Part shown: one piece after another, positions 8,053-13,545 of the stretch
How positions within the stretch are numbered: the first letter of the stretch is position 1
How the letters are laid out: every line of letters begins with the position of its first letter
Source: Labrys okinawensis
Lineage (GTDB): Bacteria > Pseudomonadota > Alphaproteobacteria > Rhizobiales > Labraceae
Assembly: GCF_002982075.1 (NCBI RefSeq)
Contig: NZ_PUEJ01000002.1
Location: 62,001 to 126,000, forward strand
Reading direction: 5' to 3'
DNA length: 64,000 nt
Notes under the pieces: model-generated
Databases searched by the model: none
What the model was told of the DNA's origin: nothing
The model's input: the letters and a program-made list of their open reading frames with translations, nothing else
Program-made: the position numbers and the translations under genes

Positions 8053-8100
8053 CGCACCCGGCTTTTACGAGTCATCGAAGAATGAGTGAATCGCTGCCAG

Positions 8101-8276
8101 GCTGTCATCCCCGGCGAGCACGTCGCAAGCTTTGCTTGCGACTGGGAGGGAAGGGGATCCAGAGCCAAGGATCGAGCTCTTCAGCTCCTGGATTCCACTC
8201 ACAAACAAAGCTTGTGAGGATACCTCGCCCTCTCTCGCTTCGCTCAAGAGCGGCTCTGCCGGGGATGACGGCAGCA
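8101..8276. repeat. Intergenic palindromic element between ATPase and permease genes
   Basis: The 307-base gap from 8053 to 8359 is filled largely by an element whose ends are inverted (GTCATCCCCGGC near 8105 and GCCGGGGATGAC near 8260-8271). Smaller internal stems include GTCGCAAGC/GCTTGCGAC and AGCGAAGCGAGAG-like blocks. A frame runs through it and joins the permease frame, but no protein signature is present upstream of 8360. ATPase and permease genes of this family are normally adjacent, so insertion of the element is inferred. Confidence 0.65.
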
Positions 8277-8359
8277 CTTATTGGGTTTCTCACCCATCGA
8301 TCCCGCGCGATGACATACCGGCAAGACGAGGCGGCCCCCAAGACAGGCAGGACTGTGCG

Positions 8360-9385: not shown

Positions 9386-9635
9386 CCCGGCCGCCGGACC
9401 GCAAGCCTTCCCGCCTCCGTTGCACGCGCGACGGAGGCGGTTCTCGTTGAGGCGGTCGTCATGCCGGCTTCACCGATGGCCGGGATTCACGGCGCTCTCA
9501 CGCGATTATGCTAAAGCATTCCGCCAGTGGACAGAGACACCTGGGAACCGCGAGGACGCGACGAAGCAAGGAGCTCGAGCAGGCAAGCGCTCAGCCAGGG
9601 GCCGGCATCGAGATGATCGAGCGAGGGGGGCGAAG

Positions 9636-10754
9636 GTGGACAAGCTCACAGGCGCGCAGGTCTCCGAACTGGCCAAGGCCCTGTCGACGACCGTCAATCT
9701 CGATGATCTCGGCAATTTCGTCTATGTGGCGACCGGCGACCAGCTCGAGGTCTACTGGACCGACGTCGCCAAGCCGCTGGTCTCCGTGCTGCGCGAATTG
9801 GTCATCCGCCTCGAACAGGAAGGTCAGACCGGCAATTTCCTCAAGGCGATCTATGTCGACCGCCCGCGTCGCGACGATATCCGCCAGCTCATCGCCCGGC
9901 TGGCGCCGGAAGCGGCGGCTGAAACCCTGACCAATCCCTATGACCTGGTGGTGCTGGACAAGGACAATCGCGGCACGCAGCCCAGCGCCGCGACCCTGGG
10001 CCCCGGCCTGCAGCGCAACATCAAGCCTCATTTGCGCATGCTCGATCCCGCCTTGTGGATCGCCGGAATGAACGATACGCTGCGCCGGGTCTGCCGCATC
10101 GAGATCGACGGCAGCCCGGCCGGCACCGGTTTCCTGGTCGGCCCACGGGCGGTTCTGACCAACTGGCATGTCGTCGAGGCGGTCGCCGGGCAGAACGGCC
10201 TGTCCGCCGTTTCCTGCCGTTTCGACTATGCGCGCAAGGCCGACGGTTCCTTCAACGAGGGCGAGGCGGCCGCGCTGTCCGGCACCGCGCTGCTGCACCA
10301 TCGCCCCTACGCGCCGGCCGAAATGACCGCGGCGCCGGACGAGCCGCCCCCCTCGGCGACCGAGCTCGACTTTGCGCTGCTGGAGCTGGCCGGGAACACC
10401 GGCACCGAGCGCGGCTGGTTCGCCCTGCCGGGCCGGGACGACGCCCTGGGCCAAGGCTCGCCCCTGATCATCGCCCAGCATCCCCATGGGGGGCCGATCA
10501 AGCTGGCGATCGACACCGAGGCGATCCTGCCCACACCCGCTCCGCCGGGCCGGCCGAGGCTGCGCTATGCCACCAACACCGATCCGGGCTCTTCAGGCTC
10601 ACCCTGCCTGAGCATGGAGTGGCAGCTTCTCGCCCTCCATCATTTCGGCGATCCGGCCTGGGGCGAGCCGACATTCAACCAGGGCGTCCCCGCGGGACTG
10701 ATCCGGGCGGATATCGAGGCGGCCGGCCTCGGCGCCGCCATTCCGGCGGCCTGA
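9636..10754 (+). CDS. Trypsin-like serine protease with N-terminal effector-associated domain (EAD1-like)
   Basis: The chosen start is GTG 9636, with GAGGGG about six bases upstream; it gives 372 residues. An upstream frame to 9420 is low-complexity Arg-rich sequence and is rejected. Residues 5-92 (GAQVSELAKALSTTVNLDDL, then NFLKAIYVDRPRRDDIRQLI) look like effector-associated domain 1, a small all-helical adaptor module. Residues 150-360 are a trypsin-like peptidase with an intact triad: His178 in TNWHVV, Asp245 in ELDFALLEL, Ser320 in DPGSSGSP. No signal peptide or membrane segment, so it is probably cytoplasmic. It is followed after 13 bases by the second cassette gene. EAD-coupled trypsins are known from NTP-dependent conflict systems; a role here is inference. 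Confidence 0.85.
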   Translation: MDKLTGAQVSELAKALSTTVNLDDLGNFVYVATGDQLEVYWTDVAKPLVSVLRELVIRLEQEGQTGNFLKAIYVDRPRRDDIRQLIARLAPEAAAETLTNPYDLVVLDKDNRGTQPSAATLGPGLQRNIKPHLRMLDPALWIAGMNDTLRRVCRIEIDGSPAGTGFLVGPRAVLTNWHVVEAVAGQNGLSAVSCRFDYARKADGSFNEGEAAALSGTALLHHRPYAPAEMTAAPDEPPPSATELDFALLELAGNTGTERGWFALPGRDDALGQGSPLIIAQHPHGGPIKLAIDTEAILPTPAPPGRPRLRYATNTDPGSSGSPCLSMEWQLLALHHFGDPAWGEPTFNQGVPAGLIRADIEAAGLGAAIPAA

Positions 10755-10767
10755 GAAGGGGAACGGC

Positions 10768-12111
10768 ATGGGCGTCGTCACACTCCCCCCTCAAAGCGTC
10801 ATCTCGATCTCCAACGCGATCGGAGACCTGTGCACCTTTCGCGAACTGGGCGACCTCATGCAGATCTGCTACGGCACGTCGGTTGCCATCACCGGTGTGA
10901 GCTTTGCCGAGCAGCCCCGGCGCAAGGTCGCCCGCGATTGCGTCGACTGGGCGCAAAAATGCGGGATCCTGACGAATTTCGTCGCCATCGTGCTGCATGC
11001 CAAGAACGACAACACGGCGTTCAGGGAATTGGTGACGCAATTGATCCCCGATGCCCTGACCGCACCGCCGAGCGTAGCGTCGCAGGTCGGCACCGTCGTC
11101 ACCGGGCTCGACAGTCTCGCCGCCTATTTGGCCAAGGACGAGGTCGGGAAGAAGGCGGGCATCTCCAAGCAGCGCCTTGGCGAGATCGGCCGACGCATCA
11201 ACCTGCTGGCTGCCTATAAGGGGCTGCACGACAGCCTCCACCATATCCAGATCAACCACACCCGCATCCTGCTGCAGGCCGTGGCGAGCATGGACAACCC
11301 GATCAGCTACGAGACGGTGCAGGTCTACATCGCCCAGGTCCGTGCCGCCGTCGCCGCCATCCGCACCCAGATCGCCAGGCCGGGCGCGGACGAGATCCTG
11401 GCCGGCCTCGACCTTTCCTGGGTCGACGAGCTGGAAAGCAGCTCGCAGCGCTGTCAGGAGGGGCTCGACGCCGACAGGCCGGGGCCGGTGCTCATCGCCA
11501 TCCGGCAGATCGCATCGATCAGCGACAGCCAGTCGGTGCAGCTGAACAAGGGTATCTTCGATGCCGCGACGAAATTGCCCCTGCCGGAACTGGCAGGCGC
11601 CCTGGTCGAAATCGGCGCAGCCGATGCTGGCCTGCAGGCGGCGCTCGACGAGGCCATCGTCGCCCTCGGGGCCCTGCAGCGCACCTTGATGAGCCGGATC
11701 GCGACCCATAACCGCCTGCAGAAAGTGGAGCAGAACCTCTCGATCCTCGCCAGTTGCCTGGACGATCCCGGTGTCCTGATCGTGGATGAGATCGCCGCCC
11801 TCTGGCCCGAGACCAGGGCGATGCTGCTGAACCTGGCGTCGCTGGGCCTGGAACGCGCGGATCTGACCGTCGATGGAGAGGATTGCGACAAGATCGACGC
11901 CTGCCTGCAGGATGTCGAGATCGCCCAGCGCGACACCGCGTTCAACCTCAAGAACGCGCCGGCAATCCGGGCCCTGCAGCGGGCCTTCTCGGGTTTCCAG
12001 AAGAATGCCAGTGCCCAGTTCTTCGCGCTCGACAGCCGGCTGAAGGCGGATTTCGACAGCGTCTTCCAGATCAGCGGCCGCCTGAAGGACATTCTGGGGG
12101 CCGTGCCATGA
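10768..12111 (+). CDS. Unknown protein with EAD-like N-terminal domain
   Basis: The product is 447 residues, starting at an ATG with AGGGG six bases upstream. Residues 10-96 parallel the N-terminus of the upstream protease by eye: AIGDLCTFRELGDL against ALSTTVNLDDLGNF, and GILTNFVAIVLHAKNDNTAF against GQTGNFLKAIYVDRPRRDDI, ending QLIPDAL against RLAPEAA. The rest (about 120-447) is predominantly helical with long amphipathic stretches, no membrane segment and no Walker motif. I know no family for it. Sharing an adaptor domain with the protease suggests homotypic association. The stop overlaps the next gene's ATG (ATGA), so the two are translationally coupled. Confidence 0.75.
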   Translation: MGVVTLPPQSVISISNAIGDLCTFRELGDLMQICYGTSVAITGVSFAEQPRRKVARDCVDWAQKCGILTNFVAIVLHAKNDNTAFRELVTQLIPDALTAPPSVASQVGTVVTGLDSLAAYLAKDEVGKKAGISKQRLGEIGRRINLLAAYKGLHDSLHHIQINHTRILLQAVASMDNPISYETVQVYIAQVRAAVAAIRTQIARPGADEILAGLDLSWVDELESSSQRCQEGLDADRPGPVLIAIRQIASISDSQSVQLNKGIFDAATKLPLPELAGALVEIGAADAGLQAALDEAIVALGALQRTLMSRIATHNRLQKVEQNLSILASCLDDPGVLIVDEIAALWPETRAMLLNLASLGLERADLTVDGEDCDKIDACLQDVEIAQRDTAFNLKNAPAIRALQRAFSGFQKNASAQFFALDSRLKADFDSVFQISGRLKDILGAVP

Positions 12112-13460
12112 CCGAAACAGCGCCCCCTCTTCAGCCGAACATCTACGCAAGCATCGCGGATATCAGCCACGCACATCTCGACCTGCTCAGGTCCAGCAGC
12201 CAGCGGAGTGACGATAGTCCGCAAGCAATCGAAGCCTTTCACAATCGCGTTGCGGCTTTCCGGGACAGTGTCGCGGCAGCCGGCGCTCGCCTTGGACAGG
12301 AGGAGGATCGCGAAGCAGCCCAGGGCATCATCGACTATTGGAGCACGCAGCTGCTGACCTGGTCGACGAACGGCGCGAGGCTGGATCTCGACCTGCCGCT
12401 CGCTCCCTATCTCACATCGGACAAGGCTCTCCCCGCCGGCGCAACGGTGGCCGGGAGTTCGACGGGGGCGGCGACGGCGCAGGACGCCCGCGCCCAGATC
12501 CGCATCGGTGCCCTGGCCTATCAATGGCGCCGGTCGAACCGGGCGCCCGGCTATCTGCTTACCGGCAATGCCCTGGTGGAAGCTGCCGGATATCGCGACA
12601 AGGACCCGGAAATCGAGGCCTTCGTGAGCGCGAGCACGGCGGCCGAACGCCGGGCGCGCCATATCCGCATCGGGTTCATCGTCACGCTCCTCCTGTCCGT
12701 CGCCTTTGCCATCCTCGCTGTCCTCTCCTTCCTTCGGGAGAACGAGGCCCGCAAGGAGGCCGATCGCCTGCGCGAGCAGGCGGAGGAACTGTCGGCGGAC
12801 AATGACAAGCGGGCCCAGCGCTTCCTCAAGGCCGATGTTCAACTCCAGACCGAGCGGTTTCGGCACGAGGCCGAACTCAAGGATCTCAACGACCAGCTGC
12901 TGGCGATGAAACGCTCGCTGGAGGAAGCCCAGACCAAACTCAAGGATGCCCTGAAGTCGGCGCCGGCACCAACGGCGAACCCGTCCCAGCACCAGTTCCT
13001 GCGTGCTTCGGACGCTGTGCTGACACAGGCCATCGACCAGTCCCGGGCCTACAAGCTTCCCCCTCCCCCCAAGCTGACGGCCGGCGAACAATTGCTCGCC
13101 AACGTCAACCTGATCGATGGCCCCAATGGCGATGCGCGGCGGGCGACCACGGACAATCTCGTGCGGGCATTGCGCGACGGGACGGTCTCGCCCGCCGACC
13201 AGCGCATGCTGGTCGGCGCCCTCGTCAACATGCTGGCGCGGCCGGCCGTCCAGAGCCTGACGCTGACGGGGCGCTACAACGTCCTCTACATCCTCTCGAC
13301 CATCACGCAGACCCAATGGACCTTGCCGGACTGGGCGGCCCTGCGCGAGCGGGCTCGCGTCGTGACGGCCGACCTGGTCGGCCCCAATGCCCAGAACGAC
13401 CTTCCAATGGGAACGGAATCGCAGAAATTCTACCAGCAGCTGGTGCAGAGGCTGCAATGA
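12108..13460 (+). CDS. Membrane-anchored coiled-coil protein of the EAD/protease cassette
   Basis: Started at ATG 12108 within an ATGA overlap, the protein has 450 residues. The N-terminal 90 residues (from NIYASIADISHAHLDLLRSS, later REAAQGIIDYWSTQLL) form a compact helical module that recalls, uncertainly, modules preceding STAND NTPases or WD40 repeats. A single membrane helix spans about 188-209 (IGFIVTLLLSVAFAILAVLSFL). A charged heptad-like coiled coil covers about 210-285. A C-terminal helical domain (about 320-450) includes ADQRMLVGALVNMLARP. No catalytic motif is visible. It may anchor the complex or report to it; this is inference. Confidence 0.72.
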   Translation: MTETAPPLQPNIYASIADISHAHLDLLRSSSQRSDDSPQAIEAFHNRVAAFRDSVAAAGARLGQEEDREAAQGIIDYWSTQLLTWSTNGARLDLDLPLAPYLTSDKALPAGATVAGSSTGAATAQDARAQIRIGALAYQWRRSNRAPGYLLTGNALVEAAGYRDKDPEIEAFVSASTAAERRARHIRIGFIVTLLLSVAFAILAVLSFLRENEARKEADRLREQAEELSADNDKRAQRFLKADVQLQTERFRHEAELKDLNDQLLAMKRSLEEAQTKLKDALKSAPAPTANPSQHQFLRASDAVLTQAIDQSRAYKLPPPPKLTAGEQLLANVNLIDGPNGDARRATTDNLVRALRDGTVSPADQRMLVGALVNMLARPAVQSLTLTGRYNVLYILSTITQTQWTLPDWAALRERARVVTADLVGPNAQNDLPMGTESQKFYQQLVQRLQ

Positions 13461-13487: not shown

Positions 13488-13545
13488 TGGCCACTGCATC
13501 TGCGAGACCTGGATTGCTTCGCTACGCTCGCAATGACGGTGCTTG
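13488..13545. repeat. Short intergenic repeat fragment
   Basis: The gap between the cassette and glnD contains CTGGATTGCTTCGCTACGC followed by TCGCAATGACGG, a sequence type common in alphaproteobacterial intergenic repeats, with a weak inverted counterpart (GAATCCAG) upstream. The two flanking genes converge here. Confidence 0.4.

Follow-up and report, generated by a model that had tools for sequence, protein, structure and literature searches.

The second gene of a three-gene protease cassette in the soil bacterium Labrys okinawensis very probably encodes, at residues 11-96 of its product, a divergent relative of EAD1 that is homologous to the N-terminus of the protease encoded just upstream. 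The cassette was found in a window of 64,000 nucleotides (the whole stretch of DNA that was analysed), and its three genes, coding for an EAD1-trypsin protease, protein 2, and protein 3, were co-directional on the + strand. The protease gene (9636..10754, 372 aa) had a GTG start behind an AGGGGGG ribosome-binding-like run, a start position consistent with the Bradyrhizobium orthologue. Protein 2 (10768..12111, a 447-aa frame) started 13 bp behind the protease gene, and the gene for protein 3 (12108..13460, 450 aa) overlapped that of protein 2 by ATGA. The cassette was flanked by what we take, by sequence recognition, to be a sugar ABC transporter on one side and glnD on the other. The stretch separating the cassette from the transporter operon upstream of it held a GC-rich hairpin (9411..9440, +) with a 13-bp stem and a weak T tail, a possible terminator; hairpin sites like this one were no commoner here than in shuffled sequence. 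The same three genes were found in Labrys sp. KNU-23 and WJW at 77-95% identity, and the cassette was present in 3/5 Labrys genomes. When the two cassette-less Labrys genomes were compared as empty sites, the neighbouring transporter was missing there as well. Palindromic intergenic sequences were observed in the flanks on both sides (8100-8280 and 13500-13540 of the window); they resembled dispersed rhizobial repeats, with each core occurring once in the window.

The protease carried the sole Pfam EAD1 domain of the Labrys genome (PF19955, residues 3-89, 9642..9902, +), scored at 25.8 bits and thus just over the cut-off of 24.2. Its catalytic part matched Pfam Trypsin_2 (E=2e-16), and the motifs TNWHV, ELDFALL, and GSSGSPC placed the triad of a trypsin-like serine protease at about H178, D245, and S320. 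The first-pass annotation had assigned to 10768-11060 an EAD-like domain matching the protease's own. These coordinates were correct, corresponding to codons 1-98 of the 447-aa frame, and the domain itself, supported by BLASTP, HMM, and hhalign, spans 10798..11055 (+). The match to the protease's domain was upheld by profile-profile, shuffle, leave-one-out, and cross-species tests.

When the whole protease was compared with the whole of protein 2 by BLASTP, the best match joined both N-termini in register (protease 9-93, protein 2 11-96, 21% identity, E=0.002 for a single comparison). An EAD1 profile was then built on 12 alphaproteobacterial and cyanobacterial proteins that carry EAD1, with all protein 2s left out. 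Residues 1-105 of protein 2 scored 19.6 bits against this profile, a value reached by none of 2000 shuffles (best 5.9 bits) and by none of 934 further segments, whether real or translated from frames (best 5.3). With the Labrys protease removed from the profile, protein 2 still scored 15.3 bits (0/1000 shuffles). The profile-profile alignment of both N-termini, the check named beforehand, gave an hhalign match at Prob 92-96. The EADs of the cassette proteases against the protein-2 family yielded Prob 95.7 and E 9e-9, with 0/300 column permutations reaching the protein 2 score, and protein 2 against the 12-member EAD1 set yielded Prob 92 and E 6.5e-7 over 77 columns. No other segment of protein 2, the helical rest included, matched the protease EADs in hhalign.

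The Pfam EAD1 model returned nothing for protein 2, even at E=10, leaving it under the curated cut-off, and for this reason we filed the domain as EAD1-like and not as a Pfam member. The EAD of the Bradyrhizobium protease, 39% identical to that of the Labrys protease, was also missed by this model. Using solely EAD1s from outside these cassettes, hhalign gave Prob 2% for protein 2, and an HMM built from the outside EAD1s scored protein 2 at 9.8 bits, the Labrys protease at 12.2 bits, and the Bradyrhizobium protease at 1.2 bits. On these HMM scores, protein 2 resembled EAD1 to about the same degree as the proteases of the group did. Homology to EAD1 domains extended over the whole domain, and was weaker with the outside-cassette EAD1s alone. 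The resemblance might instead be generic, in that visual inspection might align any small bundle of helices in this manner; an identity of just 21%, the silence of Pfam, and the insignificant hhalign score with outside-cassette EAD1s would all fit such a reading. We regard it as very improbable, since the shuffles (0/2000), segments (0/934), and column permutations (0/300) failed to reproduce the match, the helical remainder of protein 2 had no match, and an equivalent match was seen independently in Bradyrhizobium.

The landmarks that had been picked out by eye were also present: LG-N/D at residues 25-27 of the protease and 27-29 of protein 2, an NF turn (GQTGNF at protease 63-68, GILTNF at protein 2 66-71), and an end reading LAPEA in the protease and LIPDA in protein 2. 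They carried over in part to the Bradyrhizobium pair, in which the P-E-A/T end was kept but LG-D/N and the NF turn were absent. Protein 2 also has the layout described by Kaur et al. 2020, namely a non-enzymatic terminal domain of about 90 aa with copies on adjacent genes, one of them on an effector. We searched the Labrys genome with a combined EAD profile, which includes both Labrys domains by construction, so that its informative point is that no third EAD-type domain was found (next match E=0.18).

Relatives of the cassette were reached through the protease. A search with its sequence picked up a Bradyrhizobium barranii and a Caulobacter rhizosphaerae plasmid on which the genes follow one another in identical order, and the protein 2 counterparts there were identified by way of the protease, not of the protein 2 sequence. 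The protein 2 of B. barranii was 20% identical to that of Labrys, and its N-terminus matched its own protease at 32% over 79 aa (E=2.7e-4), with STGDRLYDSFVGEGKP aligned to STGIPITD-LVGERDPP and FPEAV to FPETL. It was closer to its own protease (score 79) than to the Labrys protein 2 (44). With Labrys and Bradyrhizobium only and fixed columns, a co-divergence test gave an excess that reached only a P of about 0.02. We then compared protease and neighbour N-termini in a matrix of seven loci, and the true pairing was the best of 5040 arrangements. An own-pair signal was seen in 4/7 loci, with z values of about 8 in Labrys, 11-13 in B. barranii, 15 in G117, and 21 in Paracoccus, and was absent from the other three taken alone (two Caulobacter loci and G709); the Caulobacter protein 2 had a z of -0.4 against its own protease. 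Adjacent copies were therefore closest to each other, in the sense of Kaur et al., over the seven-locus matrix but not in 3/7 loci individually.

Several neighbouring arrangements were noted in these genomes. The C. rhizosphaerae plasmid carried, just downstream of the first cassette, a second cassette of trypsin, small ATPase-like, and AAA genes (L031, 17258-22121). The N-terminus of its protease was EAD1-like (20.9 bits) and that of its neighbour was not; this neighbour, the protein 2 of the second locus (L031 18304), looked EAD-like by eye, failed every score, and was rejected, as was the G709 protein 2, which likewise failed as an EAD carrier. Triads of trypsin, unknown, and full nSTAND1 genes were found in G117 (L053, 5597-11818) and G709 (L058, 3-5538), and the N-terminus of the second L053 protein matched that of its own protease (z about 15) though it was undetected by any EAD profile. 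The B. barranii cassette lay in a peptidase island (L032, 3513-27414) with a caspase, an astacin-like M12 peptidase, and a trypsin-NucA fusion; the island also included Ku, plus unclassified proteins encoded after an alpha/beta hydrolase. An IS256 transposase follows the B. barranii protein 3, which may be truncated.

Beyond the EAD1-like domain, protein 2 consists of about 350 aa predicted to be all-helical. It matched no Pfam, NCBIfam, or PADLOC family, and no enzymatic domain was found in it; Pfam Trypco1 and Trypco2, which are trypsin partners, matched neither protein 2 nor protein 3 even at E=10. By sequence, Labrys was the only source of protein 2 relatives, both among 297 order-level genomes and in genome contigs; 385 class-level genomes had no convincing relative, and viral contigs, plasmids, and phages had none at all. 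Weak matches at class level had the appearance of helical or coiled-coil noise and were dropped, and TRADD-N on the Bradyrhizobium protein 2 (E=0.19) was insignificant. The protein 2 frame was 94-95% conserved in the two other Labrys genomes. Between Labrys genomes, dN/dS was 0.015-0.022 for the protein 2 EAD, 0.09 for the remainder of that protein, and 0.13-0.28 for the protease EAD; the protein 2 EAD, at about 0.02, is under extreme constraint. AlphaFold2 of protein 2, run with three close sequences, predicted five helices in residues 8-92 (block pLDDT 41-77, overall 57), followed by a low-confidence stretch at residues 96-132 between the EAD and the helical body. The model of the protease N-terminus (pLDDT 45) was too weak to use. 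Foldseek with the low-confidence protein 2 model returned nothing usable, and no EAD1 structure was retrieved by a sequence search of the PDB, profile searches there giving designed-protein noise.

Taken as sequence evidence, these results make protein 2 a likely EAD1-like adaptor that would contact the protease. The adaptor position was assigned to it because sister cassettes (G117, a Bradyrhizobium) have a matching gene order, and a contact between the two proteins is well motivated by the packed operon, the conservation of the three genes as a unit, the best-of-5040 pairing, the lack of a third EAD, the strong constraint, and the published EAD coupling. The two EADs might alternatively be paralogues, arisen by duplication or swap, that do not bind each other, each self-associating or binding an undetected third protein. 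Homology alone is no proof of contact, the CARD of LypA is predicted to self-interact, and three loci had no own-pair similarity. However, the genome yielded no further EAD-type domain, the operon is tightly packed with own-locus pairing the best of all arrangements, and the protein 2 EAD evolves far slower than that of the protease (dN/dS 0.02 vs 0.13-0.28), as would be expected of a binding hub; we consider non-binding paralogues unlikely. Protein 2 might also be a substrate or an inhibitor of the protease, its EAD delivering it to the active site and cleavage freeing an active or inactive helical fragment. Trypsin-like proteases of defence systems do activate partner pro-enzymes by cleavage (PMC12799240), and the stretch 96-132 between EAD and helical body could accommodate this reading, but protein 2 has no known cleavage site or enzymatic domain. 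Such a role has a similarly low probability and is compatible with an EAD contact rather than opposed to it.

The adaptor reading of protein 2 can be set against known systems. Kaur et al. 2020 proposed homotypic coupling by EADs and found that neighbouring EAD copies are closest to each other (PMC7159879). As in that EAD1 coupling, the Labrys cassette has a trypsin effector that begins with an EAD, next to a gene whose product begins with another copy. It differs in that the body of protein 2 matches no Pfam family (VMAP, iSTAND, GAP1, and Ubl were not recognised), the protein 2 EAD lies under Pfam detection, and the cassette has no MoxR/vWA or GTPase genes. Like the NucA-trypsin System 3 of the same authors, it is alphaproteobacterial and has a trypsin fused to EAD1 together with other EAD1 operon proteins, and the B. 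barranii cassette adjoins a trypsin-NucA fusion, but no nuclease of the NucA family (Endonuclease_NS) was found in the Labrys genome. In LypABC of Caulobacter, two-hybrid assays showed that LypA, a trypsin-like protease, binds through its CARD-like N-terminus to the N-terminus of LypB (PMC13236601). LypABC is by analogy the nearest experimental parallel: both CARD-NLR / LypABC and the Labrys cassette have three genes and an N-terminal helical adaptor on a trypsin-like protease, and partner binding has been shown in LypABC, whereas the Labrys cassette has no ATPase, its adaptor is EAD1-like, and protein 3 is a membrane protein. In Hachiman, toxicity is triggered when a fused dimeriser clusters the protease (PMC12799240).

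The related cassettes differ in the third gene. The EAD-trypsin / EAD-X / nSTAND1 triad of G117 resembled the Labrys cassette in gene order, position of protein 2, and protease sequence, and G709, of the genus Bradyrhizobium, had a similar layout with EADs that are unproven. In both, the third gene codes for a full nSTAND1 NTPase (matched at E=2e-54 and 5e-49, respectively), whereas the cassettes of Labrys, B. barranii, and C. rhizosphaerae are NTPase-less. Pfam detected no NTPase domain in the Labrys cassette, and the B. barranii third protein also lacks one; protein 3 had no Pfam nSTAND1 match and no P-loop NTPase module, and no nSTAND1 over the cut-off was present in the Labrys genome. Protein 3 comprised a helical N-terminal module, a segment resembling the nSTAND1 C-terminus, a single TM helix at about 188-206 (by hydropathy), a coiled coil, and a C-terminal domain at about 282-449. 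It matched its Bradyrhizobium counterpart (P0006) at 33% (E=2e-16) and that of Caulobacter (P0009) more weakly. The Caulobacter protein matched Pfam nSTAND1 at profile positions 259-378 only and had a TM helix after this part; the Labrys and B. barranii proteins aligned to it at the N-terminal module, and more weakly in the segment before the TM helix. Judged through this Caulobacter sequence, protein 3 seems to be what is left of an nSTAND1 protein, membrane-anchored and devoid of the ATPase.

A Bosea caspase protein carries, after a TM helix, a domain shared with the C-terminal part of protein 3 (25%, E=2e-10), and an LmuA-like MBL nuclease is encoded in the operon of this caspase (E=1e-69). 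The Labrys cassette shares a domain with caspase / MBL-nuclease operons (PMC12799240 type) but has neither a caspase nor an MBL nuclease. The Bosea operon, on a plasmid of Bosea vestrisii (L067, 12250-17951), consists of caspase, LmuA-like MBL nuclease, and caspase-TM-domain genes; it contains two caspases and is similar to defence operons of the caspase-nuclease type. Positive charges within 15 residues before versus after the TM helix numbered 6/1 in Bradyrhizobium, 6/0 in Bosea, and 4/4 in Labrys. The agreeing Bradyrhizobium and Bosea counts are consistent with an external C-terminus, the Labrys count being uninformative.

We propose that protein 2 is the adaptor of a defence-like cassette, and that its EAD1-type domain, of the same family origin as the protease EAD1, would bind the latter homotypically and thereby hold or cluster the protease. 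Protein 3 would serve as membrane anchor and sensor, replacing the ATP-driven switch of related cassettes; its C-terminal domain, probably extracytoplasmic, might sense an envelope or infection signal, a topology and role that we hold to be plausible rather than probable. Protein 2 would couple this signal to the protease through the EAD-EAD contact, and clustering of the protease would lead to target cleavage and then to growth arrest or death. A defence outcome is somewhat favoured, and the complete scheme remains tentative. More speculative still is a switchless EAD protease system, in which the nSTAND1 ATPase core was lost, the membrane remnant senses the envelope and signals via protein 2 to the EAD-protease, and the EADs co-evolve as a private pair at each locus.

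The EAD principle and EAD1-trypsins are already known. What is new is an EAD1-like domain that Pfam does not see, carried by a helical protein of no known class, its confirmation in a second species, and the ATPase-less third component. EAD coupling has so far been proposed from gene layouts, and none of the papers found reports a solved EAD1 complex; a genome with a single matching EAD pair, in one operon, offers a clean test of homotypic coupling and of its specificity. The Pfam EAD1 model under-reports the family, so that partner genes are missed. The apparent loss of the ATPase, if true, would show that an NTP switch is dispensable for the working of such protease cassettes.
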